Notes under the pieces: generated by a model
Told to the model about the DNA's origin: nothing
What the model saw: the letters and a program-made list of their open reading frames with translations, nothing else
Database searches by the model: none
Source of the DNA: Siphonodentalium dalli
Lineage: Eukaryota; Mollusca; Scaphopoda; Gadilida; Siphonodentaliidae
Length of the DNA: 64,000 nt
Direction of reading: 5' to 3'
Assembly: GCA_032622095.1 (NCBI GenBank)
Contig: CP136069.1
Coordinates: forward strand, 3,251,566 to 3,315,565
Position numbers and translations under genes: made by a program
Shown here: piece after piece, positions 945 to 42,019 of the stretch
How positions within the stretch are numbered: the stretch's first letter is position 1
Layout of the letters: each line of letters opens with the position of its first letter

Positions 945-1075
945 CTTAACTTCAGAGTCCTTGCAGAACAAACAGGGGTTGTGGTCGATCAGCCTCTGTG
1001 ATTTAGCTGTGTCCAGGAAATAAACAAGCAAGATGAATCTCTTAAGTGTGTGTTCGGCAACAGCCTCTGCATAGC
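945..1075 (-). CDS. ASPM: ASPM exon 8: [14 protein letters not shown]...[10 protein letters not shown] block
   Basis: A 131-nt exon. Acceptor tttatcattttag|GCTATGCAGAGG at 1076-1077 joins exon 7 as G|GC to restore Gly. Donor is GTTAAG|gtacga, phase 0. It reads [20 protein letters not shown], then [20 protein letters not shown] and SEVK. This aligns gap-free with vertebrate [44 protein letters not shown]. A second possible acceptor, 9 nt inside (tatgcag|AG), would remove three residues and spoil the alignment. The acceptor itself is the first unit of the 34-bp array at 1070-2130. The next exon is left of the window. Confidence 0.94.
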
Positions 1076-2130
1076 CTAAAATGATAAACAAATTAACTCT
1101 CCACATAGCCTAACATGTTAGACAAATTAACTCTCCACATAGCCTAAAATGATAAACTGATTAAACCCCCGCATAGCCTAAAATGATAAACAAATTAACC
1201 CTCCGCATAGCCTAAAATGATAAACTGATTAAACCCCCGCATAGCCTAAAATGATAAACAAATTAACCCTCCGCATAGCCTAAAATGATAAACTGATTAA
1301 ACCCCCGCATAGCGTAAAATGATAAACTGATTAAACCCCTGCATAGCCTAAAATGATAAACCCCCGCATAGCCTAAAATGATAAACTGATTAAACCCCTG
1401 CATAGCCTAAATTGATAAACTGATTAAACCCCCGCATAGCCTAAAATGATAAACTGATTAAACCCCCGCATAGCGTAAAATGATAAACTGATTAAACCCC
1501 CGCATAGCCTAAAATGATAAACTGATTAAACCCCCGCATAGCCTAAAATGATAAACTGATTAAACCCCTGCATAGCCTAAAATGATAAACTGATTAAACC
1601 CCCGCATAGCCTAAAATGATAAACTGATTAAACCCCTGCATAGCCTAAAATGATAAACTGATTAAACCCCTGCATAGCCTAAAATGATAAACTGATTAAA
1701 CCCCCGCATAGCCTAAAATGATAAACTAATTAAACCCCCGCATAGCCTAAAATGATAAACTGATTAAACCCCCGCATAGCCTAAAATGATAAACTGATTA
1801 AACCCCCGCATAGCCTAAAATGATAAACTGATTAAACCCCCGCATAGCCTAAAATGATAAACTGATTAAACCCCCGCATAGCCTAAAATGATAAACTAAT
1901 TAAACCCCCGCATAGCCTAAAATGATAAACTGATTAAACCCCTGCATAGCCTAAAATGATAAACAAACAAACCCTCCGCATAGCCTAAAATGATAAACAA
2001 ACAAACCCTCCGCATAGCCTAAAATTATAGACAAATTAACCCTCTACAGATCCTAAAATTATAGACAAATTAACTCTCGGCATATCCTAAAATTATAGAC
2101 AAATTAACCTTCCGCATAACCTAAAATATT
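1070..2130. repeat. 34-bp minisatellite (about 31 copies) overlapping the ASPM exon 8 acceptor
   Basis: Unit CATAGCCTAAAATGATAAAC plus TGATTAAACCCCCG, 34 bp, with CAAATTAACCCTCCG variants at both flanks. On the ASPM strand each unit is ...TTTAATCAGTTTATCATTTTAG|GCTATGCGG, that is, the exon 8 3' splice site plus about the first 7-12 exon bases. The unit nearest the exon contains the real acceptor. Older, more diverged units are at the 2000-2130 end. Confidence 0.95.
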
Positions 2131-2139
2131 ATGAACTTC

Positions 2140-2420
2140 TTCGGGTGCGTTAAACTGTTACATTAGTATTCAGGCAGTATGCCAACTGGAGGAATGTAGC
2201 ATTCTGCTACCACGCCAAAAATTTCAAGCAAATCTACAGTAGCACTCCATAGATACCATCATCTGAATTACGCTCAAATGTAAATATTTACTTCTCGATT
2301 CGGGACGCTACTATCAGCGATAAAGTAATCAAATAGATTTTGCCATCGAGAGATTATCGTCCATTTCTATTTGATCACCCTACCAGAGTGTTTCACATCA
2401 CTATTAAAAATTTAGCCCTC
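2140..2420. repeat. Dispersed repeat, related copy at about 39545-39930
   Basis: Shares long stretches with the later copy, for example CACTCCATAGA...CATC.TCTGAA.TACGCTCAA.TGTAAATATTTAC and TATTTGATCAC...GAGTG.TTCACATCACT. About 75-80% similar by eye. No ends or TSD resolved; origin unknown. Confidence 0.6.
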
Positions 2421-2742
2421 CACATAGCCAAATTAACCCTCTGCATAGTCTAAAGTTATAGATATATTAATCATCAGAGTAGCCAATAGACAAATTAACC
2501 CTCCTCATAGCCTAAAATTATAGATATCGGTAAATTAACTCAAAGTCGAACTTGACCTGTATTTTGGGTTAGTAAACCCACATACCAACTTTCATTCCAT
2601 TCAGACTTACAAAATTTATCGTCAGGAAACCAAAAAAAACGTACCCTGGCGGATGGACCAATAACACAATAGTTACCGTTAAAAAAAAAAACAGCGGTAT
2701 AAAAAGATTAGAATCATTGACTGACAAAAAACAATAATTTAC

Positions 2743-2884
2743 CATCTCTGTAAAGATGAGGCACGGTTGGATGCGAGTATTCAGCAGCAATATCTGGGTT
2801 ACTGAGTAATCTGGTTACAATAAACCGTGATATACCAATGACGTCATCGTTACTCTGTATCGGTAGAATCTCACCATATGTTGT
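2743..2884 (-). CDS. ASPM: ASPM exon 7: TTYGEI...LYRDG block
   Basis: A 142-nt exon with acceptor tttttgtttacag|ACAACATATGG and donor AGATG|gtaaat, phase 0 to 1. It encodes [20 protein letters not shown], then [20 protein letters not shown] and VPHLYRD. This is close to vertebrate [21 protein letters not shown]...[21 protein letters not shown] 37-bp, six-unit minisatellite sits about 40 bp upstream of the acceptor in intron 6. Confidence 0.95.
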
Positions 2885-2925
2885 CTGTAAACAAAAATAT
2901 ACGTAATTACTATAATCTGATTTAT

Positions 2926-3147
2926 GGCGCAAAATATGTGTGTGCACAAAGGGTCACTGACCGGCTCAAAATATGTGCGCGCACACAGGGTCACTAACCG
3001 GCGCAAAATATGTGTGCGCACACAGGGTCACTGACTGGCTCAAAATATGTGTGCGCATACAGGGTCACTGACCGGCTCAAAATATGTATGCACACACAGG
3101 GTCACTGACCGGCTCAAAATATGTATGCACACACAGGGTTACTGACA
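2926..3147. repeat. 37-bp minisatellite, six units, ASPM intron 6
   Basis: Unit GGCTCAAAATATGTGTGCGC plus ACACAGGGTCACTGACC, 37 bp, six units, ending degenerate. Each unit contains the alternating purine-pyrimidine tract TGTGTGCGCACACA, which could adopt Z-DNA. It lies about 40 bp upstream (ASPM sense) of the exon 7 acceptor. Confidence 0.9.
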
Positions 3148-3483
3148 GGATAAAAATATTTTATATTTGACCGACACGTTTTCATCTCAATGTCATTTGT
3201 CAAAATGTATTAATTATAAAACCAACAAGTCGCCACAGAAGATTACATTTGAGAGCAGAGAATATATACATTGTAAAATCATTAATAGATTAGGCCAAAA
3301 TATTACACGTTCTAGGTTTTCATACATGCAAATTTTTTTAAATCCTTACTCAAGAAAATATTGATTTTTTTATATTAAAAATAATAAATAACAAAAATTA
3401 TTCTCAAATCCTACCTAAAAAAAAAAAAAATTGGATGAAAATATGCTTTCAAAAAAAAATCTCGCCTTTTATTGCGCACATAC

Positions 3484-3551
3484 CTCCAAACCAACACGCA
3501 GCCACAGAGGGTTATACGATAACAAGAGATCCAATATTTGCTGTTTGATTC
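3484..3551 (-). CDS. ASPM: ASPM exon 6 (68 nt): [15 protein letters not shown]
   Basis: A micro-sized exon found by searching for the expected sequence. Acceptor is atattttttccccag|GAATCAAACAG and donor is TTGGAG|gtatgtg, phase 1 to 0. It reads (G)[19 protein letters not shown] and then GLE. This matches vertebrate [23 protein letters not shown] with the same length. The first G of the Gly codon comes from exon 5, and the exon ends on a whole codon that meets TTYGE of exon 7. Confidence 0.93.
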
Positions 3552-3859
3552 CTGGGGAAAAAATATAAAATGAACTATATAACAAATATCAATCAACGGC
3601 TCCTTGTATAAGGTTTTTGTAAACTATAACATGAGTACAATTAAACAATATACAAAATTAGATAAAAGATATGAAAATGTACAGTAATTGTCAGCCCTAT
3701 AGAAACATGCATGCTGCTGGTACCGGTATGTTGATTACTGCTCCAGCAATGGCATGTTAAGCTTAACATTGTTAGAATTATTTGTGACAACACTCAGATT
3801 CAGCACTCCTCATTAAAATGTTGAATTTCCTTTTCTGATTACCATACATGTAAATGCAT

Positions 3860-4918
3860 TAGTGATGTTCCGATAATCGGAATCGGAATCGGCCATCGGC
3901 CGATAATCGCCCATCGGAAATTAATCGTACCTCGCAGTTGAACATAGGCTTTTACCGATTGTCAAAATAAATAAAAACGTTCTAGTATCTAAGCGCAATG
4001 TGCACGCTTTAATAAACATACGCAATACAACTGTAGTATTGAATGTAAAACGCAGTTGTAACAGCCTAAAAAGAAGCCATTGGCATCATCAAAGCAGTCT
4101 GATATGATGATATATTATAAGAATGGCAATACGCATGCCCGATCGCATCCCGTGTAATATGAAGTTATTGGTTCAATCGCGTTGACACGAAATAGATTCA
4201 AAGAAAGATTTAATTAAAAAGCTGACCTGATTACAGTGAGGCTTCCTCTAGAGCACGTGTCATGTGACGTCACGTGCTATGTCAATAACTTGAAGCACAC
4301 ACTGAATGAATTAATACAGTTGTTATCAGAACTGTCTTCAATAACGATCAACGTTAGTAGGGGCATAATTAGCTTTTTCGTCTGTACAACGTATGCTATG
4401 AAATACGCTTAGCTCCACGTTGAACTTGCGAAACCAAAATTGAGCAGGCGGAACTATAAAAGCTTCTGAGTTGTTAAAAGATAAAAGGTGTGACCAATGT
4501 AAACTTGGGAAATCTCAGACAATATAGTTAATAATCATCGCCATTCCATACATTGTTGCAACTTACAAGTATACAATCAAGACTTTTACTCCGCATGCAA
4601 GTGTTCCACACATGGTCATAACGTTACTCTGAGTCGGCACCTTTGATCTCTTTGTCAAAACAACTACCGGTATACATCAAAGGAAGCACACAACCGACGT
4701 CGGCAGAAATACTGTCACGACAGTGTGTATATATTTCTTTGATGTATTTGGCTTTGAAACTATGCGGGATATGGAGTGCATTGGGTGTATATAAGTCCAT
4801 TATAGGAACAAACGCACAATATATATAAACATCGGAATCGGAATCGGAAATCGGCCGATTGTGCCTCCAGTTATCGGAAATCGGTCCGATAAGCTTTTTC
4901 ATTATCGGAACATCACTA
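3860..4918. mobile_element. hAT-like non-autonomous element with 8-bp TSD
   Basis: Ends are TAGTGATGTTCCGATAATCG and its inverted match CCGATA...ATTATCGGAACATCACTA. The flanks are a perfect 8-bp duplication AAATGCAT (3852-3859 and 4919-4926), the hAT superfamily signature. The 1059-bp interior has subterminal ATCGGAATCGG repeats and no recognisable transposase. It lies in ASPM intron 5, inside an older dispersed repeat whose sister copy at about 29.1-31 kb lacks the insertion. Confidence 0.88.
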
Positions 4919-5159
4919 AAATGCATATCACAACATTGGAACTCACATGGATTTAAGTGTATGCATGGTCGCTATATCTGTACATGTACTGCCATGATAT
5001 TTGAGTTTGATAGGTATACAAAAAAATAATAATATAATAATAGAATTCTGATTAATCCAGCATTGGATATGATACGCAACACCTTTTAGAACCTTCGTTT
5101 ATCAAAGACATTGCACAATTACATATTTTCATAACAGTTGGAGAAAAAAAAAAATCGAT

Positions 5160-6340
5160 TTAAATAAGGCCAAAAAAAATAAAGTTTTGGTTCTCAGGCC
5201 CCGCCGCATTGAATAAAAAGGGCCGCATTAGGCCTTTTTATTGCAATGCCTAATGTTATGACAAAAAAACTTTTTTTTTGGGATGTTATCAACATGTCCA
5301 TAGCAGATGTGTGTTGAATATTAGTGTGCATTGAGCTCTAACATGTAATGTGTTAAAAAGTGACTTGCAGGCTTACAACATGAAGTAGATGACTACAATT
5401 AAGAAAATGATTAGCTGATCCTCATGCTCTTCTTACAATTAGTCATTGTGAACAACTTACACTAATTGTAACTTTTATATACAATTTAAAGGCACAGGAC
5501 TAAATTCAGGATCACATATTAGAATGGGGAGGTATCAGTTTTTAGACAACAAGTGCACCGCTGGGCGGAGGTAACGCCCCCGACTGTGCAATCAGAGAGG
5601 ATTTTGCTTATTTTTGTGCATTCTACCAGGTAACATTTTGACCAAACTTGAGGCCTGGTCAGAACTTTCTTTTCTGAGCACAGAAACTTTCTGGTTAAGC
5701 GCTATAAAAATGCCACATGTTGTTCCATATTAGCTTCAAATTTGGTCTGGTGCCACAAAAATAGAAGGAAAACTGATTTTTTTTTTTTTTTTTTTAAATG
5801 AATTTTTTAAGTCGAAAAAGGGTCATAACTCTCACAAAAATTATCCGATTGAACCGAAATTTTACCTTGACCTGTATTGCGATATTGGTAATACACACAA
5901 AAAAAAACGGGTTTTGCAAATAAACAATCCAAAATCAACTTATCATCGGGAAACCAAAAAAAGTAGCAAAAAGGGGTGTAACTCTGGAAAAAATGGCGGA
6001 CGAAACCACGGCAATGGGGAAATCTTGTCCCCCCGGCTGGTCTATTGGCATACCAAAGATCAACTGAATTAATTTAGCGAAACCAAAGTTATGAGTTGAA
6101 ACGTTCGTATGCCACAGAAAACTGAATTTTCTAAGTCCAAAAAGGGGCGTAACTCTGGAAAAAATGGGAGGACGAAACCGCAGTTAGGGGGAAATCTTGT
6201 CCCCCCGGCTGGTCTATTAGCAAACCAAAGATCAACTGAATTGAGTTAGCGAAACCAAAGTTATGAGTTGAAACGTTCGTACGGACGGCTCCACTATATA
6301 CCCCCAAATCTCCATCGGAGATCGGGGGCATAACAATAAC
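5160..6340. repeat. Dispersed repeat region with about 155-bp internal duplication
   Basis: Contains two consecutive copies (about 5955-6110 and 6117-6275) of a segment with GGGCGTAACTCTGGAAAAAA, TCTTGTCCCCCCGGCTGGTC and AAAGTTATGAGTTGAAACG. Ends with inverted words GGTAACGCCCCCG (5567) and CGGGGGCATAAC (6322). The 'aagtcgaaaaa..ataactc' wording recurs at 49020-49545. A typical invertebrate dispersed repeat; no intact coding seen. Confidence 0.55.
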
Positions 6341-6676
6341 AGTAGTTAATGTCAGGGGCATTATATATTGTCTCGTAATCCCAGTCATACACTGGTGGTA
6401 CAATGTCATTTTTATATAAGACTGAATGAGTTTATATGCATAACAGTTCCCTCTACCTTTCTGGTTATTACTAGACAGAGGAAGGTATCTTTGTCCATGC
6501 TTACTATGCGCAGAAAAAAATAAAAAATAAAAATAAAACCCTCCCTCCCTCATTGATTTGAAGAAAAAAATTGCCCGAGAACCAAAACACTTTTTTTTTT
6601 GGGCCTAAAAAAAAATCTTATTTATTAAATCAAATTTATTTTTTCTATTGATTTAAAAAAAAATCACCAACCCTGG

Positions 6677-6783
6677 CCCTAAGTAATCGACTCCTTAACC
6701 ACAGCAGAATTATGGGTAACTTTTCAGGATTTAGTCGGAAATATGCTGTGGTTAAGGAGTCAACTATTTAGGGCATTACTGTA
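6677..6783. mobile_element. TA-flanked foldback MITE (family M), truncated, ASPM intron 5
   Basis: Family M consensus runs TACAGTAATGCCCTAAATAA...TCGACTCCTTAACC...GTAACTTTTCAGGATTTAGT...CGGAAATATGGCTTGTTGCC and then its inverse to GGGCATTACTGTA. This copy is internally deleted and lacks the extreme left end. Its right end is 8 nt from the exon 5 donor. TA-bounded CAGTAATGCC ends suggest a Tc1/mariner origin. Confidence 0.85.
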
Positions 6784-6791
6784 GCACATAC

Positions 6792-7028
6792 CTAAATCTG
6801 CATGAATCATTTTGTCTTTCCTGACAGCTATCCTCTTTGCGACAACCTCTGCCTCCAGCTTGTGAATGATACGAATCATTGACTCTGACTGGAACAATCT
6901 GCATGCCGATCTCCTCAACCGATTCAGTCTCTGTCTGGCAGCGTATGCACGGAAAGACAGGACTTCCTTTGTCGGCGCCAGATTCTGGGTATTCGCTCGA
7001 CCATCGAGTGCTAATTTATGTGCATCGA
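6792..7028 (-). CDS. ASPM: ASPM exon 5: [22 protein letters not shown] block
   Basis: A 237-nt exon with acceptor gatttatgcag|TCGATG and donor TTTAG|gtatgt, phase 1 to 1. It encodes [20 protein letters not shown], then [35 protein letters not shown] and [13 protein letters not shown]. The vertebrate counterpart is [29 protein letters not shown]...RKDRHLWKDVG. This is a helical, strongly basic segment before the CH region, and identity is high enough for a firm call. A copy of the TA-flanked foldback MITE ends only 8 nt beyond the donor, so the 5' splice site is almost abutted by a mobile element. Confidence 0.95.
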
Positions 7029-7079
7029 CTGCATAAATCAGAAAAACAATCATGTTACAAGTAATTCAAAATAATTATA

Positions 7080-10000
7080 AAGTACTAAACATGATAAAAA
7101 CATTAAATAACTAGAATGCACTCACTGGAGCTGCCTATACTTGCGCCCATCACACATTTGGCATGTTGTGTGGTGTCTTGCCAACAACAGTTTGAACCAC
7201 GGGTGCTGGCCCCTCGTTTGAGAGATCGATAAAAAAAATCTAGATATCAAATCTATATTCATCCATCGCTGAAATAGTTGTGTGTACGGACATAATATCT
7301 CTGTTATCTCAAGTTGATCTACACTAGTTACACTAATGATAGTCTTAGTAATACGTACGAGTTGTTTGACATATTAATATAACACTACAGACATCGTTCA
7401 CATGAAAGGGTGTGAAGACGATTGGTTGCCGACGATGCTATATTATATGCCAATTGGGTTAACTTACTAGTTTGACTAGAATGATATCAAGTGTGTATGC
7501 CGACACAATTAATTAAAAGAAACGGGATCATTGGTTAGTCTTTGATTAACAATGTGTCAACGTGAACATGCCCTTATCGACTGATCTACAGACTTCGGGA
7601 ACATATCAAAATGTCTATTGCGTTGAGAATGAGAAAGCTTGTTTTCCCAGTTAATTAATAAGGCATTTTAATAATCCATGTTTCCACATTCACATTTTCA
7701 GTGCAATTGTTTTTCAATTGAACCACGCGCTCGACTGTTTGACCGGACATGATTTATATGCACCAGGATCTTTCGAAAATGTTTTGAACTTTCCAGAAAT
7801 ATGTTCGCACCTCAGTCACTGCGAAAAAAAAAACGATTCCGCACGCATCTTTTAGACATGATCTCAACTCATTTCCTCGCGTTTGATGTTATATAAAATA
7901 GGCTTATAATGGGCATGTACTGTTGCCGATGTTTGTTTTACATGTAGTATATATATTTATAATAATCAAACACGAAGTTGTTGGCAGATGAAATGGTTTA
8001 GCCTGTCCGTGTAATACGAGTCTCAGCTGTCTGGACATCGACGCAATCATGTCTGTGTTTTGCGCGCCCATGTAGCTTGTGACGCCATGTAGCTTGTGAC
8101 GTCCTGATGTGCGTCGTGATCGGTTTTCAGAAAGAAATAATTCAATATTGTTCATTTATGAACGATTTAATACCAAAATAAAACCAGATAACAATGCAAA
8201 TTAAGTATATATGTGGATTTAAATAACAATTGATGCCACCATTTCATATTAGCGCGTGTTCATTTTTACAGTATGTACATCCGGTATGACGTAACATATT
8301 CACGGAAGGAAGGAAGGATAAACAGACATCCGAGCCGAAAACATTACTTGCGTCCAGCATAGACTGGCGCAAGTAATTATAGATCACAAATACCGGTAGT
8401 TTCAGATGATTAAAACTTTAAAAGCCCATTTAATTTTCGAACCCCCAGATCACATTATATAACATATATGCCATATTACATGTAATTGTATATACCATTT
8501 GAAACAGGAAGCTCCAAAACATTATATTAACTTATCCGGTGCAATAAACTCAGAAAATGTGGTTTTTGTTGAAGTACCGCCATGTTTTCCGTGCTTAAGT
8601 TTCATCTGGACTCTACTGCAAAGTCTATTAATTTCAATGACGGGAATAACTCAATGTCTTAGTTAATAAAATTCTGTGAGCGAAACAGGGGAAATGTTTC
8701 TATGATTTCAGCTATATTCTATTACGGCAGGGCTAGATTTAACTGGATTTGCATCGCGAAACCACGTGTGTTTATTTATTTTCGTAATTAAATTTAGCAA
8801 GTCGCGACTGCGCATGCTCTTCTAATTCGGCATCATCCGTCACCGGACGTGAGCCTCGGGGGCGGTGATGGAATCTGACGAGGTTTGACAAATGACTGGT
8901 ATTACTGCACGCGTCAAAACTCTGAACCTATCGATGTGGTTAGACGAATGTTGACCACAAGTCTTGTCAAACACCCATCGCAAGAGATTACATTTTCTCC
9001 ACTCCCTATAACAAATTAAAGAACAGACGACGTATGACATCTACCGGTATGCTCCCTATATAATATATTTTGGCCAGTCGATGGGAGTTAGCCGCAACAT
9101 TTTGCAACAAAATGGGCACCCAATAGTCAGTTCGTTCCGCAGGGCAACATAATAATGCGGAATTGTGCTATTTTTAGTTAACTGGGAATTCCCAATTAGA
9201 TTCACAAAATGATAACAAATTTACCCGTTAAAAAGAATGAAACAAGTAGTTTAAGCGCCGGAGTTGACAATGAGAAAAAAAAGAAGCAGAAATCTGACAC
9301 AAAAAGAATCGACATTGCGCCACCTCAGCATAAATTTAAAACCGTAACAGTAAAAAAAATGGATTAATAACGACTTAGCCATTTACAGTTTACCATGCTG
9401 ATAAAAATGGATCGAAGTTTTAATCATTTTGGTGCACTAATTAGTACAACACATGATTTTGATTATTATTTGTTGCTTGCTTAATGCCTTAATGAAACTT
9501 CACATTAATTTCATAATTTTCATTGGTTGTTTCCTTCCTTAGTGATTGCTTGGCAATATGACATTGGTACATGGAATACAGTGAGACTGATCTAAGGTTT
9601 TGATCATGCTGTTCATTACAGCAAAAACAAACATGTTACATTATAATTATAAACATGATCAGAGATGGTAAAACATTGATAACAGAACACAATAATACTG
9701 ACGTTATACTGGGGTACAGGGGTTTTGAAAGTGTATAGGTAGCTCAGTTTACATGTATATTAAATTGGTGCCTGTCAGTGACAGGCACGCTCAGGGGAAA
9801 TTTGAGAAATTATTTGCAGGCTTGCCCATGCTCAATGGGCACCTTCTGAGACAGACGTTCCAAATGGTGATGAATTTAATATAGTATTTTATTACATGAT
9901 CCTACCCTTATTCCATTCAATAAATTGTGATATTAAACGTTCGTTTAATAACAGGAAATAGTGCCAGGTGACCTTTGACTTCCGGTTTGTTGTCAGTTAA

Positions 10001-10270
10001 CATTCCGTACGCTACGTCTCAAAATACTATGGCTTCCAATATTTTTCCAACAAACTATCATGAATGAAGAGTTTGAAAAGTTATGTCACTAAATATACAC
10101 CATTAAATACGCCAAAGAGTCTTTATTTATCTGGAACTATTTCTTTATGCGTACAAACAACGAATAGTTACGTGAAACGTCATCGCATGCCTTATAGAAG
10201 CCGATGTTAGTTTCGCGTCCCATTTGTTGATTTAAGTTTATGATTTGTCGATGTTTTGGATCACGTAATA
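7080..10270. other. ASPM intron 4, unannotated stretch
   Basis: About 3.2 kb of AT-rich intron. I see no exon, no array and no clear TIR pair. Small features only: a short hairpin at about 8344-8378 (ATTACTTGCG...CGCAAGTAAT) and a 20-bp near-palindrome at about 9771-9791 (GTGCCTGTCAGTGACAGGCAC). Confidence 0.6.
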
Positions 10271-10276
10271 ATTACA

Positions 10277-22463: not shown

Positions 22464-24304
22464 CTGAAAATATATAAAATACAGTACAGGCTATTAGTAA
22501 CTTGTTACTTGTTAATATTTAGATGTGAACATGAAGAAGGCCCTATTAAATAAAAGAAAACTGCTCCTTCACAATTATGAATTTCAAAAATAAGATATCA
22601 GTAAATTAATTATTTAAAGGAAAAATCAATACGAATATAAATTTATTTACAGAAAACTTAATACCTGTTCCATGTTATTTTTTTTTTATTAATTCACAAT
22701 GTTATTACCAGTACTAGTACATGTACAATAGCTTGTTTACAAACTTCAGGGAGAAATCTCTTGAAGATTTTTAAAAAACCCAGACAGGTCATTATGACAT
22801 ACCGATTGGCCATTATTCCACATGATCGCTGATCTTATATACCAGTACATGGAGTCATGGACATGTATATATTTACTTATAAAACCAACTGCAAGGCATT
22901 ATTTTCTCAATTTATATATTCTCATTTTCCAATTTTGGGAATTTATGACTAATTCAATTGGTGTCGCCTACTAGTACATGTACTATTATTGCCTAAATAT
23001 ATTTAAACCAGATGAGTTTTAAGCTCAATTTATGCATAATTTTATTCTAATCTTTTTCATTGTGGTTTTTAGTTTTTACAATAGTTATCTTGACCTTGTA
23101 AGCCAGTGCATTCTCTTATAAATGCGAGGCTCCCGTAGCATGGATAGGGAGCCTCATATATAACAGAATGCAATGTAGTGTACTCACTGTACTGGTACCT
23201 GCAGGATCTTTAAATGCAGGCTTTCCGCTAGTAGGGCAGGGGGTCCCTAGTTTAAGGGTCCCATTCCCACAGCCAATTTTTCCCCTTCTGTCATACCACA
23301 GGACATATTCCATATGTATAAAGATGTTTACTTCTCAATTTTGTTGGGACGGTGCTAAGAAATTTAAATAGTTGTCAACTTTATTTGATTTCTAGCGAGA
23401 ATACACACTTGGACCGATCTAACACTAAAAGTTGGATGTCAGTATGTCTGTAGGCCGGAGCTAACATTCAACGTGCAGGGTCAATGTGTTCCATTTAGAA
23501 TATAGAGTACACTTTATTTAGTTTTTACTGAAATGCTCTGGATTCTGAACGAGCACACACGGCTCTGCACGTTGCACACTAGTTAGCTCCAACCTGCAGA
23601 CACAGATGAACTGAGGAAGTGATCAAACCCGACATCGCTAGAACACATGCTTTGGAGTCCGCTGGTTACATTGCTGTGGTTAGGTTACGAAAAATGACGA
23701 TAATTTAATCATACCCATTGATTCTATCTTCATGTCATAAAACATATATATCACTCCATTTTTTTCAAAGCATCTTATCTACCGGTATGTTAATTTATTA
23801 TAATCTACTAGTAGCTTGATATTTAGAACTAAAACATTGCGCCTTTATTCTATTCCTTCATTGCTTCCAACCTGCTGAGTATTATATTCCGGCACGTTAT
23901 GCCTCCGAACTATCTGCCGAGTCTTGAATAGTGAGTCGTTTAACTTGGGTAGCATAGTAACTTGGGTAGAAAATGGATGCAAAACGATTAGCAAATCTAC
24001 TCTCTGATTCTTCTATTGGCCGATACAACAAAAGTAGGTCCACTAGTGCTCCCACGACATTGAAAACATTGACTGCATTTTCCCCTCAGTGGATACAGGA
24101 CCTGTTCCCCAAAACCTGGCGGAAAGCCTGTTTTAAAAAAAATGCATTAACATTTTCCAAAGGAGTTGGGCAGGTCTGACAGAAGAAACACACCTGTTTT
24201 TAATTATTTATAACGGTACATGGGCTAGCTAATTTGTTCGTAAATGATCGATTTGTAGGCGACACCAATTTAATTAGTTGGATTACGTTTTATTTGTTAC
24301 ATAC
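22464..24304 (-). other. ASPM intron 1
   Basis: 1841 nt, GT-AG, phase 0. AT-rich. It contains one diverged family H-like hairpin at about 23102-23166 (CCAGTGCATTCTCTTATAAATG...GGGAGCCTCATATATAACAG). No other exon-like sequence recognised. Confidence 0.75.
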
Positions 24305-24910
24305 ACCGTGCGATTTTTTGACGACAGGAGCTTCCACCACACCAAAGACGAATGCCTGCAATCTGTATACATTGTCTATGACAAAAAGGATCATCTCTCT
24401 GAAATTCCCAGGATCTTCAGGTGTCCATGTTATTTCCAGAGGATATGTGCCATCAGGTTCAACAAGAAAACATTTTTCTCCAACACTGAAGTTCTTCTTA
24501 AAAGGGAATTTTTCAATCTTCACCTCTTGAGTATAATCATGTGGATTTTTTATCAGGAGAGTTCTAAGTTTTCGATTCCCTTTCTTCATTTTTCCAAATC
24601 CCAATTTCGGTGAATTTGTAAAGTGGGTTAGCATCAAAACTTCCACTTCTCCTGAACTTCTACGTCTTTTTGTAGGTTTTGAATCAATTTTCTTGGGAAC
24701 ATCATCCTCAACTGCAATCTGTAGATGCTTTGTCGGTGGTGTGTCAAACCAAGATCTGCGATTTTTCTTGACAGACCTGTTCAAAGCATTGCTAACAGAT
24801 GCAGCATGCCCATCGCCAATACTTGCAACAGAAGTATCAAAAAGGAATGACCCATTAATACTATTGCTAGTGATGGAATTGTTTTGGTTATCCATACTGC
24901 TGCTGCTCAT
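24305..24910 (-). CDS. ASPM: ASPM exon 1: N-terminus and ASH domain
   Basis: This encodes the ASH (ASPM-SPD2-Hydin) domain, an immunoglobulin-like fold typical of centrosomal and ciliary proteins. Seen: LTHFTNSPKLGFGKM, then KIEKFPFKKNFSVGEKCF, LEITWTPEDPGNFREM and a closing VIDNVYRLQAFVFGVVEAP. These align through with vertebrate ASPM, including the WTP and FG-type turns. Upstream, SWFDTPPT resembles the vertebrate N-terminal WEVSPT. The donor reads GGT|gtatgt (phase 0). The start is uncertain. I chose ATG at 24910; a second ATG at 24895 has a better context (A at -3, G at +4). The frame stays open to an ATG at 25318, but that extension begins with an L/F-rich stretch that looks like an intronic pyrimidine tract. 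The ASH domain itself is secure; only the first few dozen residues are in doubt. Confidence 0.85.
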
Positions 24911-25318
24911 GTGTGTGGTCACACTCACAGGCAGATCCAGATCTTTGTTGAACTTGAAGCTATTGTTGTTTCCATCAAACTCAACATCCAGTCTCGATTC
25001 GAGATTGGCAATGTTTTTGTTTTTTATATGGAAGTCAGTAGAAAATTGCGAAAATCTATGGGATTTATATGTCTCCTTCGATTTACTGTTAGGATTTTTA
25101 TCGAAGATGTAGAAGTCACATTTAAAGCTCTTGACCAATGGAAATGGTGATTGTTCATTGACAAAACGAATGTTTACAAGAAATTTTCTTAGAAAATCGT
25201 GAATCAGAACGAACAAGCAGAAAAGCAGAGAAAGCGCAAATAAACAAAGCAGAATGACGAATATCTCAATGCGAAAATAAACAATAAATTCCAGAATGTC
25301 AACTTTTGTGCTTGACAT
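24911..25318 (-). other. Open extension upstream of ASPM exon 1 (5' UTR, intron end or extra coding)
   Basis: This is in frame with exon 1 and stop-free back to ATG 25318. The first ~45 codons translate to a very hydrophobic L/F/C/V run. A soluble spindle protein would not be expected to carry this, and at DNA level it is a T/C-rich tract (TTTCTCTGCTTTTCTGC and neighbours). The rest is N/K/S-rich without similarity that I recognise. Either it is 5' UTR, or it contains the 3' end of a first intron. A separate short uORF of 8 codons (ATG GAT GAT GGA..., about 25402 down to 25376) lies just upstream. Confidence 0.4.
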
Positions 25319-25379
25319 CAATTTCTTGTTTCAGAACATTCTTGAATCAAGCTTCTCTCAACGTGCATAACGTCTTCAG

Positions 25380-31925: not shown

Positions 31926-32001
31926 TTGATACTTTTATTCTTAACAGCATCGCATGTCTCATTGAGAATTCCTCTTCCAAATGTTATCCCTCTTTTTACA
32001 G

Positions 32002-32790: not shown

Positions 32791-33269
32791 CATTTGTGTT
32801 TTTGCAGATCTCATTGTGGTTGTGATTGTTATGACGTTGCTGACGATGACATTTGTGTTTTTGCAGATCTCATTGTGGTTGTGATTGTTATGACGTTGCT
32901 GACGATGACATTTGTGTTTTTGCAGATCTCATTGTGGTTGTGATTGTTATGACGTTGCTGACGATGACATTTGTGTTTTTGCAGATCTCATTGTGGTTGT
33001 GATTGTTATGACGTTGCTGACGATGACATTTGTGTTTTTGCAGATCTCATTGTGGTTGTGATTGTTATGACGTTGCTGACGATGACATTTGTGTTTTTGC
33101 AGATCTCATTGTGGTTGTGATTGTTATGACGTTGCTGACGATGACATTTGTGTTTTTACAGATCTCATTGTGGTTGTGATTGTTATGACGTTGCTGACGA
33201 TGACATTTGTGTTTTTGCAGATCTCATTGTGGTTGTGATTGTTATGACGTTGCTGACGATGACATTTGA
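32791..33269 (+). repeat. 59-bp tandem array (8 copies) duplicating the SLC31 TM1-exon 3' splice site
   Basis: Each unit is CATTTGTGTTTTTGCAG followed by the first 42 nt of the coding exon (ATCTCATTGTGGTTGTGATT...TTGCTGACGATGA). Acceptor Gs lie at 32807, 32866, 32925, 32984, 33043, 33102, 33161 (variant ACAG) and 33220, exactly 59 bp apart. Each unit also has a branch-point-like TTGCTGAC about 22 nt before the next AG. The array is bounded on both sides by CATTTG (GCCC|CATTTG and GATGA|CATTTG|AAGC), which suggests duplication at a 6-bp microhomology. Confidence 0.96.
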
Positions 33270-33425
33270 AGCTGCGAAACTAATAATGTTATATATTGAT
33301 CTCAAAAGAAAACAGGATCCATTGACGTACGGGCAAACCGATCGAATGGACAGGGTGGATGGGTCAGGTATTAACATGAGTTCTCTACTAATCCCGTCAA
33401 ATGAAGCAACAATACGTCGCAAAAA
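33221..33425 (+). CDS. SLC31A: SLC31 exon: TM1 and cytoplasmic loop
   Basis: A 205-nt exon, acceptor tgtgtttttgcag|ATCTCATTG and donor AAAAA|gtgagt, phase 1 to 2. It encodes DLIVVVIVMTLLTMTFEAAK, the first transmembrane helix with the CTR-family ending (A/F)(Y/F)E(G/A)xK. A long basic and polar cytosolic loop follows, including LIMLYIDLKRKQDPL and SSLLIPSNEATIRRK. The acceptor and the first 48 nt of the exon are the last of eight copies of a 59-bp tandem repeat (32791-33269). Only the last acceptor (33220) keeps an open frame. All seven earlier ones read through TTTGTGTTTTTGCAG into a shifted copy and stop at TGA. Confidence 0.83.
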
Positions 33426-33450
33426 GTGAGTAATTTATAAGTTACACTGA

Positions 33451-33951
33451 AATGGACACCTTTAAACTACCCGTATGGAGCCCCTCACAGACGTGAGCAG
33501 ACGACACTCAGCAATACAAGCTGCCACCTGTATGGGGCTCCCTACAGGAAGCTCCAGTCATGGAAGGGTTAATACAGTTTTAGTTGCTGGGATTTTACAG
33601 GTTTTAACATTAAATGGACACCTTTAAACTACCCTTATGGAGCCCCTCACAGACGTGAGCAGACGACACTCAGCAATACAAGCTGCCACCTGTATGGGGC
33701 TCCCTACAGGAAGCTCCAGTCATGGAAGGGTTAATACAGTTTTAGTTGCTGGGATTTTACAGGTTTTAACATTAAATGGACACCTTTAAACTACCCTTAT
33801 GGAGCCCCTCACAGACGTGAGCAGATGACACTCAGCAATACAAGCTGCCACCTGTATGGGGCTCCCTACAGGAAGCTCCAGTCATGGAAGGGTTAATACA
33901 GTTTTAGTTGCTGGGATTTTACAGGTTTCAACATTAAATGGACACCTTTAA
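33451..33951. repeat. 162-bp tandem repeat (three full units and a broken fourth)
   Basis: Unit starts AATGGACACCTTTAAACTAC...; starts at 33451, 33613, 33775 and 33937 (period 162). The unit contains GGAGCCCCTCACAGACGTGA...TGTATGGGGCTCCCTACAGG, itself an imperfect hairpin. The fourth unit is split by the element at 33952-35512 and resumes at 35513-35650. Confidence 0.95.
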
Positions 33952-35512: not shown

Positions 35513-35650
35513 TTAAACTACCCTTATGGAGCCCCTCACAGACGTGAGCAGATGACACTCAGCAAAACAAGCTGCCAAATGTATTGGGCTCCCTACAGGA
35601 AGCTCCAGTCATGGAAGGGTTAATAAAATTTTAGTTGCTGGGATTTAACA
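35513..35650. repeat. Remainder of the fourth 162-bp unit
   Basis: Continues TTAAACTACCCTTATGGAGC... after the insertion to GTTGCTGGGATTTAACA, slightly more diverged than the other units. Confidence 0.9.
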
Positions 35651-35822
35651 TAATAATCGACTCCTTAACCACCGCAGAATTAGGGGTAACTTTTCAGGAT
35701 TTGGTCGGAAATATGGCTTGTTGCCATTCATCGGAAAGCTCTCAGTGAGAGCTTTCCGATGAATGGCAACAAGCCATATTTCTGCTGTGGTTAAGGAGTC
35801 GATTATTTAGGGCATTACTGTA
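35646..35822. mobile_element. Family M foldback MITE (internally shortened)
   Basis: Left end truncated (starts ATAATCGACTCC), centre GAAAGCTCTCAGTGAGAGCTTTC, right arm lacks the ATCCTGAAAAGTTACCC part, ends GGGCATTACTGTA. Confidence 0.85.
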
Positions 35823-35934
35823 GTTGGGTACCCAGCTTTTTAGCTCAACTTTACTTTGTAAAGTTTGAGCTTTTGCCATGGCTTTGTCGTCCATCGTGCG
35901 TGTGTGCGTGCGTGTGTGCATGATTCGTCAACAA

Positions 35935-37335
35935 TTTCTTTTAGCACGGGCTACAGGTTTTACCTTTGGTCGGATCTTTATAAAATTTGTCATGAAATTC
36001 GTCATGGATGTTAGTATTGACATGTAGATGGGAACGAGTAATTTTGGGGTCATTCGGCCAAAAAACATGGCCACCAGCAGCCATCTTGGATTTTACTCTT
36101 TGCATGACTAAATTGTTTTGGCACGGGCTACAGATCCTACCTTTGGTCGAATCATAATGAAATTTGTCATGGATGTTAACAATGACATATAGATGGGAAC
36201 GAGTCATTTTGGGGTCATTCGGCCATAAAACATGGCTGCGGGCAGCCATCTTGGATTTTACTCTTTGCATGACTAAATCCTTTGGCACGGGCTACAGGTC
36301 ATACCTTTTGTTGGATCATTATGAAATTTGTCATGACATTGACATGTAGATTGGAACGAGTCATTTTGGGGTCATTCGGCAAAAAAACATGGCCGCCAGC
36401 GGCCATCTTGGATTTCAAAATTCAATCCATTGGCACGGGCTACAGGCCGGAGTGTTTGTTTGATCATCATGAAATTTGTCATGGAAGTTAATATTGACAT
36501 GTAGATGGGATTGAGTAATTTTGGGGTCATTCGGCCAAAAAACATGGCCGCCAGCAGCCATCTTGGATTTTACTCTTTGTATGACTAAATCCTTTGGCAC
36601 AGGCTACAGGTCGTACCTTTGGTCGGATCATCATGAAATTTGTAATGGATGGAACGAATCATTTTGGGGTCATTCGACATAAAAACATGGCCACCAGGAG
36701 CCATCTTGGATTTTACTCTTTGCATGACTAAATCCTTTGGCACGGGCTACAGGTCGTATCTTTGAACGGATCATTATGAAATTTATAATGGCTGTTGACA
36801 TTGACATCGAGATGGGAACGAGTCATTTTGGGGTCATTTGGCCAAAAATCATCGCCGCCAGCAGCCATCTTGGATTTTAATCTTTGCATGACTAAATCCT
36901 TTGGCACGGGTTACAGGTCGTACCTTTGGTCGGATCATCATGAAATTTATCATGAATGTTAACAATAGCACGTAGATGGGAACGAGTCATTTTGGGGTCA
37001 TTCATTAAAAAAACCAGTGGCCATCTTGGATTTCATAATTCAATAAATTAGCACAGACTACAGGCCGGAGTGTTAGTCTGATCATCATGAAATTTGTGGT
37101 GGAAGTTAATATTGACACGTAGATGGGAACGAGTCATTTTGGGGTCATTCGGCAAAAAAACATGGCCGCCAGTGGCCATCTTGGATTTCAAAATTCAATC
37201 CATTAGCACGGGCTACAGGTCATACTGTTCGTCTGATCATCATGAAATTTGTCATGGATGTTAATATTGACATGTAGAGGGGAACGAGTAATTTTGGGGA
37301 TATTCGGCCAAAAAACATGGCTGCCAGTCACATTC
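35935..37335. repeat. Degenerate tandem repeat of about 150-160 bp, roughly nine units
   Basis: Each unit has GGCACGGGCTACAGGTCRTA, ATCATGAAATTTGTCATGGA, AACGAGTCATTTTGGGGTCA and CAGCCATCTTGGATTTTACT. Units are diverged and some have deletions. Preceded by a TGTGTGCGTGCG tract. Widespread type in marine invertebrates; the frames through it are not genes. Confidence 0.85.
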
Positions 37336-37665
37336 ATTTAAAATTGGAAGTTGTCATGATATAAATTAGATATGAGGAAAGTTACCTGCATTTCAATCAA
37401 AGCTTGCTAGTGTTATATGAACTACATTGTATATGAAACATATGAATGGTAATTCCAAGTGACTGATCGCTCAGAAACAGGCTGATGTTATGACGTAAAT
37501 GTTTGCATCATTACGTGTGATGTTTGCATCACTACATGTGATGCTTGCATCACTATGCGTGATGCACATTCCTGATAGCGTTGTGTTTCTCAGTTAAGTG
37601 AGAAAACAATGGAATAGTTGAATTCGCGGAACAAATAAAAAATAATAATTATGGCATAAATAAAT

Positions 37666-37802
37666 ACACGCATAGTAGCCGAGAGTAAAAAAAATTCACC
37701 ACTTGTGGAATTGTGGTTTTAACCACTCGCCAAAAGGCTTGTGGTTAAAACCATAATTCCACTCGTGGTGAAAATTTGGTATTCTCGGCTACTATGGGTG
37801 TA
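37666..37802. mobile_element. Foldback TIR element (family T)
   Basis: TACACGCATAGTAGCCGAGA...CACTTGTGGAATTGTGGTTT...AACCACTCGCC, AAAAGGC loop, then its inverse ending TCGGCTACTATGGGTGTA. Near-perfect ~65-bp arms. Related elements at 40200-40395 and 40870-40990. Confidence 0.8.
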
Positions 37803-37869
37803 TTCTATATGCCCACATATTTAGGGCATCACTCTACTATTGCCCACACTAGGTCATATGCCCAGCTCT

Positions 37870-37950
37870 CGTTCTTTTTAGATTGCACGGGGGCTATTTC
37901 AGTCATATGGTTACTATTTTATGAGGTCCCCTCTGTTTCAATCTTTTTAG
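37870..37950 (+). repeat. Decayed duplicate of the SLC31 TM2-exon acceptor
   Basis: TTCTTTTTAG|ATTGCACGG..GGCTATTTCAGTCATATGGT..TACTAT at 37872 parallels ATCTTTTTAG|ATTGCAG...GGTTATTTTGTTCACATGGT..AACTAT at 37941, offset 69 bp. Similarity about 70-75%, so an old duplication. Confidence 0.55.
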
Positions 37951-38066
37951 ATTGCAGTATTTGACGGCAGGTTATTTTGTTCACATGGTAACTATGTTCG
38001 AAGGATACATCCTGATGTTTGCTGTGATGTCGTATAATGCATGGCTTTTGCTTGCTGTTATAATCG
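37951..38066 (+). CDS. SLC31A: SLC31 exon: TM2 with MxxxM motif and most of TM3
   Basis: A 116-nt exon, acceptor atctttttag|ATTGCAG and donor ATCG|gtatgt, phase 2 to 1. It encodes LQYLTAGYFVHMVTMFEGYI, then LMFAVMSYNAWLLLAVII. The MFAVM segment is the MxxxM copper-selectivity motif of TM2. AVMSYNxW is the CTR signature shared with human CTR2 (LAVMSYNTW) and related to FMTYNGYL in CTR1. The nearer AG (gattgcag|TAT) would enter in phase 0 and break the join, so the upstream AG at 37949-37950 is used. A decayed copy of the same acceptor and exon start lies 69 bp upstream. Confidence 0.92.
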
Positions 38067-38139
38067 GTATGTAACACATTTCCACAGTACCACATAAGCT
38101 CTGGTCAGCCCAGATATTACTTTTTTTTAAACAAGGCTT

Positions 38140-38620
38140 GAAATAGCGTGTCTGTCATTTGCAGAATGAGGTTCACAGAGGGTGAATTTAGTGATGCTAT
38201 CCCGCACAGTGGGCTAGCATCACCAAATTCACCCTCTGGGAACCTCATTCTGCTGAAGCCTCAACTGCTATGTGAGACCTACATGTACATGTACAGATCA
38301 AGGCAAAACCTGAGTGTAGAATAAAACTGTGATCATTATGTAGTTATTGTAGTGTATCATTTCAAAATCAAGTAATGTAAACTCAAGGTTTTTTTTAAAC
38401 ATTCCAACAATAAATACATTGTGTACATCTCAAATACAAAGCTGGAGTATTATTATTGGGGTAGCATCACTAAATTCACCCTCTGAGAACCTCATTCTGC
38501 TTAGGCCTCATCTTCTCTGGCAAGTTTCTTTATCATAACCTGATGTGCAGGTTAATGTCAGTATATTCACCCTCTGGGGACCTCATTCTGAAAATGACAG
38601 ACACACTATTTCAAGACTTG
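38140..38620. repeat. Family G composite (two foldback units)
   Basis: Copies at about 38142-38262 and 38455-38615 around a non-matching core. Lies in the SLC31 last intron. Confidence 0.75.
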
Positions 38621-38674
38621 ATTTTAAAGATGGTTTAATTGTCTCTTCCCTGAAATTTTTGTAACATGATCACA

Positions 38675-38840
38675 TACAGTAATGCCCTAAATAATCAACT
38701 CCTTAACCACAGAAGAATTATGGGTAACTTTTCAGGATTTAGTCGGAAATATCGCTTGTTGCCATTCATCGGAAAGCTCCTGAAAAGTTACCCATAATTA
38801 TGCGGTGGTTAAGGAGTCGATTATTTAGAGCATGACTGTA
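38675..38840. mobile_element. Family M foldback MITE
   Basis: TACAGTAATGCCCTAAATAA to CATGACTGTA; the right arm is shortened. Confidence 0.87.
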
Positions 38841-38992
38841 CTCTACAATAGTATTAACAGTCATTGTGAACAAAAATTGTTAATCACCTTTGTTGTAGGT
38901 ATGAACGTTTCCCATACGTTTTGAACTGCGAAGTGTATAGGCTCTATATCCACCATGGTGGTTCATACCAATCCGACCACGCAACATAAAGA

Positions 38993-39449
38993 CCCTGTGC
39001 CAATGCATTCTCTTATATATGCGAGTCGACCATAGGTCGCCTCACATATATAAGAGAATGCATTGGCCTAACAATTTTTTATCAATTTTTCTTACATTCT
39101 TTAACAATATTTATAATTTTATATCATTTTTTGTTACAATACGTACATTCTATAACAATTTTTATTTTTATTTTTTTATTATTTTTTCTTCCATTCTATA
39201 GGAATTTTTATCATTTTTTTTATCATTTTTCCTTACATTTTTTAACAATTTTTATCATTATTTCTTTAATATATTCTTTAACAATTTTTATCATTATTTC
39301 TTATATTCTTTAACAATCTGTATAATTAAAAAAAAAAAATTCTTACATTCTTTAACAGTAAAAATGATATAAAATTTGTTAGGCCAATGCGTTCTTTTAT
39401 ATGGTCCTATGGTCGACTCACATATATAAGAGAATGCATTGGCACAGGG
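38993..39449. mobile_element. Paired family H hairpins around a T-rich core
   Basis: CCCTGTGCCAATGCATTCTC...hairpin, about 300 bp of repeated TTTAACAATTTTTATCATTTTT, then an inverted damaged hairpin ending GCATTGGCACAGGG. Same arrangement as inside the P1 and P2 MITEs but without their outer ends. Confidence 0.75.
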
Positions 39450-39539
39450 TTTTCACATTTTGTGATATAGCTACAGTAGGTACTTTCAAATTGCCATGTT
39501 ACAGTAACTCTGTGGGGAAATAAAGATCAAAGTCGACAT

Positions 39540-39935
39540 GTTAAAGACATATTATGGACTTGTTCAAGTGCGATAAACTTATAAGTGCGATAAACTTATA
39601 AGTTAATAAACAGCCGCTATGCCAACCTGGAGAATGCATAATTCTAATACATGTAAGATCACCGAAAATTTCAAATGAATTGAACATACCACTCCATAGA
39701 AAACATCGTCTGAACTACGCTCAATTGTAAATATTTACATGTCAGTTTGGGACGCAACAATCGGCGATAAACTACACAAAAGATTTTGCTATCTAGTGTC
39801 ATTGCATTTAATTAATATATGTAAGAATGACTGTGTGTGTTGTCAATTTGAATTAATATTCGTAAAAAAATAACTACTTTGAGCAAGATCATTCTCCATA
39901 TCTATTTGATCACTCTAACGGAGTGATTCACATCA
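39540..39935. repeat. Dispersed repeat, second copy of the 2140-2420 family
   Basis: See 2140-2420; this copy has a duplicated GTGCGATAAACTTATAA and an extra 90-bp AT-rich insert before CATTCTCCATATCTATTTG. Confidence 0.6.
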
Positions 39936-40199
39936 CTTTAATAAAAAAAAAACACTAGTTATACTTTCATAAATCGATGATATTATGTGACAAAAAAATA
40001 AATAAATTTTAATAGCTTTTTTATACACTTTCACAATTCCCTCAGGTTTCATATCCCTTCGCCAGGTAGCAGCACTGATGTACTAGTACTGAGTTGCCGG
40101 GGGTCCACAGAGGGTTGAAGCGTTGACAAATTTGTTCGATTTTTTAAGTTCTAACTTTCCAATATTATTCTTGTTGGTAGGATTATGGTATAATCATAA

Positions 40200-40395
40200 T
40201 ACACTCGTGTGGTAAACATAATACATGCGTGTGGTAAACATAATACATGCGTAGTGTTTCTGAATACCAAATTTACACCGCTCGAGTCATGGGATTGATG
40301 ATTTACCACACGAGCTTTGGCGAGTAAATCATCAATCCCATGAGTTGTGTAAATTTGGTATTCAGAAACACTATGTGTGTATTCTATATTTATAA
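40200..40395. mobile_element. Foldback element
   Basis: ATGCGTAGTGTTTCTGAATACCAAATTTACAC...ATGGGATTGATGATTTAC mirrored by GTAAATCATCAATCCCATGA...TAAATTTGGTATTCAGAAACACTATG. Loop is CACACGAGCTTTGGCGA. Confidence 0.8.
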
Positions 40396-40879
40396 CATAA
40401 TTGGCTGTTCTATTGTGTGTATAACACCCTTTTTGTAAACTTCATCTTTACACCCTACTGTGGGTATACAGTTTCCTTCTGTGGGTATACATTTCTACTG
40501 TGGGTGTAAATGTTCTAACGTAATTTCATGTGTTAAACGTGTATGACTATAGTAGAACTACATCTGTGTATGACTATAGTAGAACTACATCATAGTTAGC
40601 AAAATTATGTCTTATGTCACATACATTTAAAATAGGAAGTTGTCATGATATCAATTAGATATGAGGAAAATTGCCTGAATTTCATTCAAATGTAGCTTGG
40701 TTGTGCTATATTAACTAGGAAACATATGAATGATAATTCCAAGTGACGGATCGCTCAGAAACGGGATGACGTCATGACATTAATGTAAGCATCACTACAC
40801 GTGACGCACAGTCCTTATAGCGTCATGTTTGTGTATCTGGGTGAGGATACACATTCAAAGTAAACAGCGGGGTAGTTCC

Positions 40880-41475
40880 CCGTTCGTGGTATTGTGGTTT
40901 TAACCGCTCGCCAAAAGGCTCGTTGTTAAAACCACAATTCCACTGATGCTGAAAATTTGGTATTTTCGGATACTATGCGTGTATTCTATATATATTTGGT
41001 ATTTTCGGATACTATGCGTGTATTCTATATATATTTGGTATTTTCGGATACTATGCGTGTATTCTATATATATTTGGTATTTTCGGATACTATGCGTGTA
41101 TTCTATATATATTTGGTATTTTCGGATACTATGCGTGTATTCTATATATATTTGGTATTTTCGGATACTATGCGTGTATTCTATATATATTAGTTGGTAT
41201 TTTCGGATACTATGCGTGTATTCTATATATATTATTTGGTATTTTCGGATACTATGCGTGTATTCTATATATATTTGGCATTTTCGGATACTATGCGTGT
41301 ATTCTATATATATTATTTGGTATTTTCGGATACTATGCGTGTATTCTATATATATTATTTGGTATTTTCGGATACTATGCGTGTATTCTATATATATTAT
41401 TTGGTATTTTCGGATACTATGCGTGTATTCTATATATATTTTGTATTTTCGGATACTATGCGTGTATTCTATATC
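40880..41475. repeat. 39-bp minisatellite (13 copies) grown from the end of a family T element
   Basis: Unit TTGGTATTTTCGGATACTAT plus GCGTGTATTCTATATATAT, 39 bp, some units +2 or +3 bp. The first unit is the right terminus of a foldback element (40887-40990) whose relatives at 37802 and 40390 have only one such terminus. The 179-codon open frame through it is a by-product of the 39-bp period. Confidence 0.93.
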
Positions 41476-41541
41476 AGAGGTTTAGAATAATAATTATGAG
41501 TTGAGGTCCAGACCTAATTTACTAGACAAGTTTTGTAAATT

Positions 41542-41866
41542 CTGCATATCGATTTCAGTATCACGTCCGGTTAATATTTTACAGGTATATCGATTTCAGT
41601 ATCACATCTGGTTGATATTTTTCAGGTAGCGGCTTATCGATTTCAGTATCACATCTTGTTGATATTTTTCAGGTAGTGGCTTATCGATTTCAGTATCACA
41701 TCTGGTTGATATTTTTCAGGTAGCGGCTTACCGATTTCAGTAACATGTCTGGTTGATATTTTTCAGGTAGCGGCTTATCGATTTCAGTATCACGTCTGTT
41801 GATATTTTTCAGGTAGCAGCTTATCGATTTCAGTATCACGTCTGTTGATATTTTTCAGGTAGCGGC
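41542..41866 (+). repeat. 46-47-bp tandem array (7 copies) duplicating the SLC31 last-exon 3' splice site
   Basis: Unit TTATCGATTTCAGTATCACR plus TCTGGTTGATATTTTTCAG|GTAGCGGC, carrying the acceptor and the first 8 exon bases. Acceptor Gs at 41584, 41625, 41672, 41719, 41766, 41812 and 41858. ATCG flanks both the left start (catATCGattt) and the exon continuation (ggcATCGgtt), a 4-bp microhomology. Every upstream acceptor leads to an in-frame stop within 1-2 units. Confidence 0.94.
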
Positions 41867-42019
41867 ATCGGTTACTTCATATCAGCTGTCATCGGACAAA
41901 AAATTACAATGAAATACTCAGGACTCAATTCATCAATTGGAAACCAATCGTCAGTGAATGAAACAGACCAGACTCCGCAGTATATGGTTTACGATGCTGC
42001 TGGTAATGATATATCATAG
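41859..42019 (+). CDS. SLC31A: SLC31 last exon: end of TM3 (GxxxG) and C-terminal tail
   Basis: The acceptor ttgatatttttcag|GTAGCGGC (41857-41858) joins in phase 1 to give IIG-SGIGYFISAVIGQKI, so the GSGIG stretch provides the GxxxG helix-packing motif of CTR TM3. A polar tail of about 35 residues follows (...TPQYMVYDAAGNDIS) and stops at TAG 42017-42019. The His-Cys-His end of CTR1 is absent, again more like CTR2. The four exons found total 184 codons plus stop, close to the family's usual 140-190. The acceptor is the last of seven tandem copies (41542-41866). No clear AATAAA follows closely. Confidence 0.87.

Follow-up and report, generated by a model that had tools for sequence, protein, structure and literature searches.

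Why should three exons of two adjacent genes each begin inside a tandem array of copies of their own 3' splice site? The question is raised by a 64-kb stretch of the Siphonodentalium dalli genome (positions 3251566-3315565 on contig 9; the genome totals 2.23 Gb in 9 contigs), hereafter the window, 23% of which is covered by tandem arrays. The plus-strand gene concerned is a Ctr/SLC31 copper transporter, identified by a PF04145 match, and the exons on the minus strand presumably belong to a gene resembling ASPM. The answer that we regard as very probable is that the arrays are "mirages", i.e., minisatellites that by chance cross an exon-intron boundary, neutral in effect and with splicing at the exon-proximal site.

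Under this explanation, short tandem duplications would arise and expand throughout the genome without seeking splice sites, and an array that came to include a boundary would copy the splice site together with a piece of the exon. Duplicated splice sites compete, with proximity and exon sequence deciding the outcome, as classical experiments established. In RNA, we infer, splicing would pick the exon-proximal site, which is the final one in a run of acceptors and the initial one in a run of donors, most probably through exon definition, while the remaining copies would become intronic, drift and vary in number. If exon definition does favour the copy adjoining the exon body, a boundary-crossing array should be nearly neutral; it would be tolerated because that copy preserves the exon whole and supplies the splice site in use.

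The three arrays of the window

The arrays and the exons that they enter, including the SLC31 exon of the first transmembrane segment (TM1), are as follows.

945..1075, minus strand: ASPM-like exon in its genuine form, from translation and a predicted exon; acceptor AG followed by GCTATGC, first base 1075, last base 945
1069..2127, minus strand: 34-bp array of 31 copies across the acceptor of the ASPM-like exon; AG in 29/31 copies
32791..33268, plus strand: 59-bp array of 8 copies across the acceptor of the SLC31 TM1 exon; CATTTG at either edge
33221..33425, plus strand: SLC31 (Ctr) TM1 exon in its genuine form, from translation
41547..41866, plus strand: 46-47-bp array of about 7 copies across the acceptor of the SLC31 last exon; unit holds 8 exon bases
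41859..42019, plus strand: SLC31 last exon in its genuine form, through the stop codon; translation SGIGYFISAVIGQKITMKY...DIS*

A sequence-only reading of the window had reported these three arrays, and they are present where it placed them and have 31, 8 and about 7 copies. Its name for the first of the three exons, ASPM exon 8, presumably follows the numbering of the human gene. It had described the unit as an acceptor with 7-48 exon bases; each unit indeed comprises the intron end, the AG and 7 (ASPM-like), 48 (SLC31 TM1) or 8 (SLC31 last) bases of the exon. Translation of all three exons likewise bears out its statement that the exon-proximal copy yields a family-like protein, with LIVVVIVMTLLTMTFEAAKL... 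for the SLC31 TM1 exon and SGIGYFISAVIGQKI... for the SLC31 last exon. The copies further from the exon, here called decoys, lead into stop codons as it had proposed. Among the ASPM-like decoys that retain AG, a stop follows in the genuine phase in 28/28, at a median of 0.4 unit and a maximum of 3.1 units; the same is true of 7/7 decoys of the SLC31 TM1 exon and of 6/6 aligned decoys of the SLC31 last exon.

The length of the SLC31 TM1 array (478 bp, or 8 x 59 + 6) and the CATTTG at its edges suggest, without amounting to proof, that it was born by a duplication flanked by microhomology. The same array illustrates a practical hazard, as gene predictors may choose the wrong copy of such a series: a simple exon predictor overran the TM1 exon by one upstream unit and merged it into the exon.

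Three cases in 41 kb had been judged unlikely to be a coincidence, and this judgment does not survive a comparison with the array density of the locus. Nine acceptors and seven donors of the two genes were mapped by script and by eye, an incomplete map in which arrays span 3/9 acceptors and 0/7 donors. Tandem arrays cover 18.7% of positions 945-42019, and when they are shifted circularly over positions 900-42100, at least three of the nine acceptors are spanned in 23% of positions (P = 0.23), and at least three among all 16 boundaries in 58%; some coordinates used in this test deviate by as much as 5 bases, though never near an array edge where the count would be altered. Because array density here is so high, three arrays at nine acceptors are unremarkable.

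Array-spanned boundaries across the genome

In a second explanation, a specific mutational process, for instance one involving R-loops or lariat-related copying, duplicates intron 3' ends and makes acceptors into hot spots. The 3/9 acceptors and 0/7 donors of the window speak for it. A sample of 160 exons was hand-picked from family searches, each with a match free of in-frame stops and with 600-bp flanks on each side; among the matches listed, it took in 80/123 for kinesin, 40/73 for SNF2, 31/63 for UCH and 9/85 for myosin. The selection passed over stop-containing matches, genes that nearly duplicate one another, most of the myosin matches, four UCH matches about 1 kb long and, once 80 had been reached, some lower-standing stop-free kinesin matches; 18 kinesin exons with stops inside the match were added later. 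Several of the sampled exons lie close together, so that their flanks overlap, and many come from the same genes; they are not fully independent.

Arrays were found by Tandem Repeats Finder (TRF) and inspection, and the boundaries are predictions based on protein matches and the splice consensus. The automatic count, limited to exons with a confident predicted site, gave 9/148 acceptors and 10/139 donors. In curation by eye, with all 160 exons as the denominator, one exon (L060) was dropped, as its array ends at the acceptor and the AG occurs only in the last copy; L064 was added to the acceptors and L047 and L061 to the donors, and L095, whose array starts about 9 bp beyond the donor, was kept out of the count.

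Arrays cross 9/160 acceptors and 12/160 donors, or 21/320 boundaries. With the 18 additional kinesin exons, which contribute no acceptor and one donor, the totals become 9/178 acceptors and 13/178 donors, i.e., 22/356 boundaries or 6.2% (95% interval 4.1-9.2%), with no difference between acceptors and donors (P = 0.51). At distances of 100, 200 and 300 bp, arrays cover 29, 38 and 33 of 320 flank points, and coverage over distances of 20-500 bp ranges from 7.8% to 11.9%; about 10% of the sampled flanks lies in arrays. Set against these three groups of points, boundaries give Fisher P = 0.30, 0.03 and 0.12, respectively, a comparison in which some points may fall inside neighbouring exons and some flanks overlap.

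Boundary-spanning arrays are thus widespread in the genome and no peculiarity of the 3' splice site, because donors carry them at least as often as acceptors. Nor are boundaries enriched in arrays, because 9-12% of the intron points 100-300 bp away lie in one; coverage at boundaries is equal to that of introns or somewhat below it. The proposed tendency toward tandem duplication at intron 3' ends therefore stands insofar as such arrays occur far beyond the locus, and falls insofar as it singled out acceptors (9/160, against 12/160 donors). The enrichment at acceptors that had been suggested as a check on it is absent from the sample, with 21/320 boundaries set against 29, 38 and 33 of 320 intron points. 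Acceptor hot spots could still be read into one UCH acceptor, at which a new 31-bp unit is nested beside an older 63-bp array, but the sampled donors are affected as often and boundary coverage does not exceed that of introns, and a process of this kind appears quite unlikely.

A stronger form of the mirage explanation, in which we place as much belief as doubt, is that splice boundaries are almost transparent to the birth of minisatellites: about one exon end in 16 would carry a series of near-identical sites, from which the exon-proximal one would be picked with such reliability that boundaries show no more than a mild depletion of arrays in comparison with introns.

Turnover and decay of the decoy copies

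For six array-bearing exons, seven near-identical partners were compared, with a best blastn piece 92-96% identical. An array is present at the same boundary in 7/7 partners; its copy number or unit has changed in 5/7 and is equal in 2/7. The changes comprise 14.5 versus 11.5 copies, a 31-bp versus a 63-bp unit, 6 versus 2 copies, a 71-bp versus a 59-bp unit, and at least 13 versus 4 copies (a further stretch adds about 6). The exon proteins compared are identical or have one residue changed. Most extreme is UCH exon L128 (L175, reverse strand), which is preceded by about 16 copies of a 63-bp unit and then, next to the exon, by a 31-bp array; it has 47 exact acceptor copies, its partner L165 has 3, and the two encode the same protein.

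The pairs L128/L165, L144/L167, L115/L168 and L158/L169 each lie 0.2-3 Mb apart on one contig, some of them inverted. Judging from these sequences, near-identical pairs may be recent segmental duplicates or unmerged haplotypes. On contig 4, at about 274.2-275.5 Mb, some eleven places match the myosin head with very similar scores, and this cluster probably consists of recent duplicates.

That haplotypes may have been left unmerged lends some plausibility to an assembly artefact, in which the assembler itself made false tandem expansions. Yet the copies within an array carry distinct, ordered variants, all seven partners have an array at the same place, and the arrays, at 0.1-2 kb, are short relative to long reads, if long reads were used; an artefact seems highly unlikely.

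The decoys themselves were aligned in 24 arrays, 12 at acceptors (including the three of the window) and 12 at donors, with 112 decoy copies in all; only 7/30 ASPM-like decoys enter this count, the script having halted at a short copy. AG or GT is kept in 97/112 decoys by script and in one more by eye (L072, an alignment slip), and 11 of the 15 copies scored as lacking the site belong to a single array, that of L115. Mismatches fall on 17/224 positions of the AG/GT columns and on 347/5651 of the other columns, with 14.2 +/- 8.3 expected at the splice dinucleotides by permutation. Exon and intron columns of the decoys mismatch at the same pace (6.2% and 6.1%). Units contain 5-87 exon bases. In 13 arrays the splice score of the exon-proximal site lies above the decoy mean, in 3 below it and in 8 equal to it (sign test P = 0.02).

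Use of a decoy would nearly always destroy the reading frame, as the sequence-only reading had anticipated: among 97 decoys with an intact site, 88 lead to a stop and 7 to a frameshift, and 2 keep the frame. These 95/97 disabling decoys, with 28/28 in the ASPM-like array, are also what one would expect of poison acceptors, i.e., decoys whose regulated use feeds nonsense-mediated decay, so that copy number tunes expression; the intact AG or GT of 97/112 decoys, many with good consensus scores, points the same way. Stops are expected by chance, however, and the AG/GT columns are neither better kept nor faster lost than others, as far as the test can tell. Moreover, the arrays of near-identical gene copies show turnover in copy number and unit, and donors and acceptors of unrelated genes are affected alike. 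Both the absence of preferential retention and the turnover tell against the control of expression through nonsense-mediated decay that had been put forward for the locus, and we consider it improbable.

A coding role would have the repeats translated in some transcripts and the protein lengthened by them. Seven of the 24 units are multiples of three, two intact decoys keep the frame, and mismatches lean slightly toward codon position 3. Multiples of three show no excess (P = 0.83), nearly all decoys run into stops, and their exon columns drift at the pace of intron columns; in-frame inclusion of the repeats was rejected on the period modulo 3 and codon-position tests, and we give the idea barely any credence. 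Taken together, the copies look untranslated and appear to drift beside one maintained site, a pattern that fits the mirage explanation within the limited power of the tests.

Several points weigh against this explanation. The AG or GT in use was assigned from the continuity of the protein. The 3/9 acceptors of the window exceed the 9/178 of the sample (Fisher P = 0.014), in a case picked for its acceptor arrays and in a stretch that is array-rich (19%, against about 10% in the sampled flanks). Counts at acceptors and donors are uneven among families, with 2 and 9 for kinesin, 3 and 0 for SNF2, 4 and 2 for UCH, and 0 and 1 for myosin. In the TRF rows, units are longer and copies more numerous for boundary arrays than for intron-only arrays (median period 62.5 versus 23), which may reflect a length bias or a real difference. 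The matrix behind the splice scores was trained on the same exons, making that comparison mildly circular. Exon-column mismatches of decoys number 32, 38 and 50 at codon positions 1, 2 and 3 (of about 900 each), a lean that is a weak sign of constraint and that the exon-proximal copy alone could explain. At L115, AG is lost in 11/12 decoys, mostly by ACAG becoming ACGG, and kept in the exon-proximal copy, and this loss could be selection. Finally, the test of neutrality has low power because the copies of an array homogenise.

Known boundary repeats and neighbouring features

The closest counterparts are the mirages of lancelets, described as minisatellite-like arrays in which the intron-exon boundary is duplicated, at the 5' as well as the 3' end, and known from Adh, troponin C, the globins BflGb6/BflGb9 and PGBD5; units measure 10-72 and 150-160 bp (60 and 108 bp in PGBD5), regular splicing is reportedly undisturbed and haplotypes differ in copy number (PMC3087553, PMC3902484). 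The arrays described here share with them the position across the boundary at either end of an exon, units containing AG or GT with a piece of exon, and variation in copy number, here in 5/7 near-identical partners that may be alleles or paralogues. Unit length makes no difference in kind, because the range of 30-127 bp found here overlaps that of lancelets. Every defining feature of mirages that could be tested is thus found, and the arrays are classed as mirages on this basis. What sets them apart from the lancelet cases is that about 6% of the boundaries sampled, all of them from four families of conserved genes, carry an array, and that one acceptor is present in up to 47 copies; frequency and copy numbers are the apparent novelties. 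Lancelet genomes are also far smaller than the 2.23 Gb of this one and have more chromosomes.

Beyond lancelets, human segmental duplications contain internal tandem repeats at exon-intron boundaries, reportedly linked to new introns and repeat-retaining transcripts (PMC2812944). Tandem repeats over exon-intron boundaries are common to both systems; unlike the human examples as described there, those of S. dalli lie in deeply conserved families and look untranslated. Minisatellites near alternative exons of Caenorhabditis elegans are reported as intronic motifs and not boundary arrays (PMC4039745). A search of titles and abstract beginnings found no boundary arrays outside lancelets and the human case, a weak negative given the thin coverage of subscription journals.

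Tandem acceptors of the NAGNAG type also place several acceptors in a row before one exon, with a choice of 3 nt. The arrays share this succession of acceptors, but assignment to the NAGNAG type was rejected in view of the spacing of about 28-127 bp, the length of the arrays and the 95/97 intact decoys that lose the frame or meet a stop.

Splice sites that are identical and compete with one another normally have to be constructed by experimenters; here they appear to occur naturally, in two to 47 copies and at donors as well as acceptors, and near-identical gene copies provide internal controls for splice-site competition in conserved genes. If the stronger form of the mirage explanation is true, the genome would hold natural competition assays on the choices of the spliceosome, in both orientations and, by extrapolation from the sample, in the thousands, as well as a large nursery for new introns. 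RNA from this species would bear on the exon-proximal rule, on the cost of decoys and on the proposed route from mirage to new intron.

Two further features complete the map of the two genes.

24293..25330, minus strand: open frame with an ASPM-SPD-2-Hydin (ASH) domain (PF15780, E=1.1e-19)
37958..38066, plus strand: SLC31 (Ctr) middle exon, both ends array-free; PF04145 match at 37955-38062 (E=2.4e-6), ends placed by eye

The predicted ASH domain supports the ASPM-like name, and its frame and the array-bearing exon would belong to one gene; the ASPM-like exon 945..1075, searched alone, has no match in NCBIfam. In an SLC31 relative (L170), sought as a means of dating the last-exon array, a look for motifs in 7.3 kb did not find the last exon. 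Other arrays stop short of boundaries. A 37-bp array at 2926-3159 ends about 40 bp upstream, in the sense of the gene, of the acceptor of another ASPM-like exon, and an array of three 162-bp units at 33450-33951 starts about 25 bp past the donor of the SLC31 TM1 exon. At the far end of the window, a 70-bp satellite of about 50 copies occupies positions 60542-64000 and continues beyond the edge.

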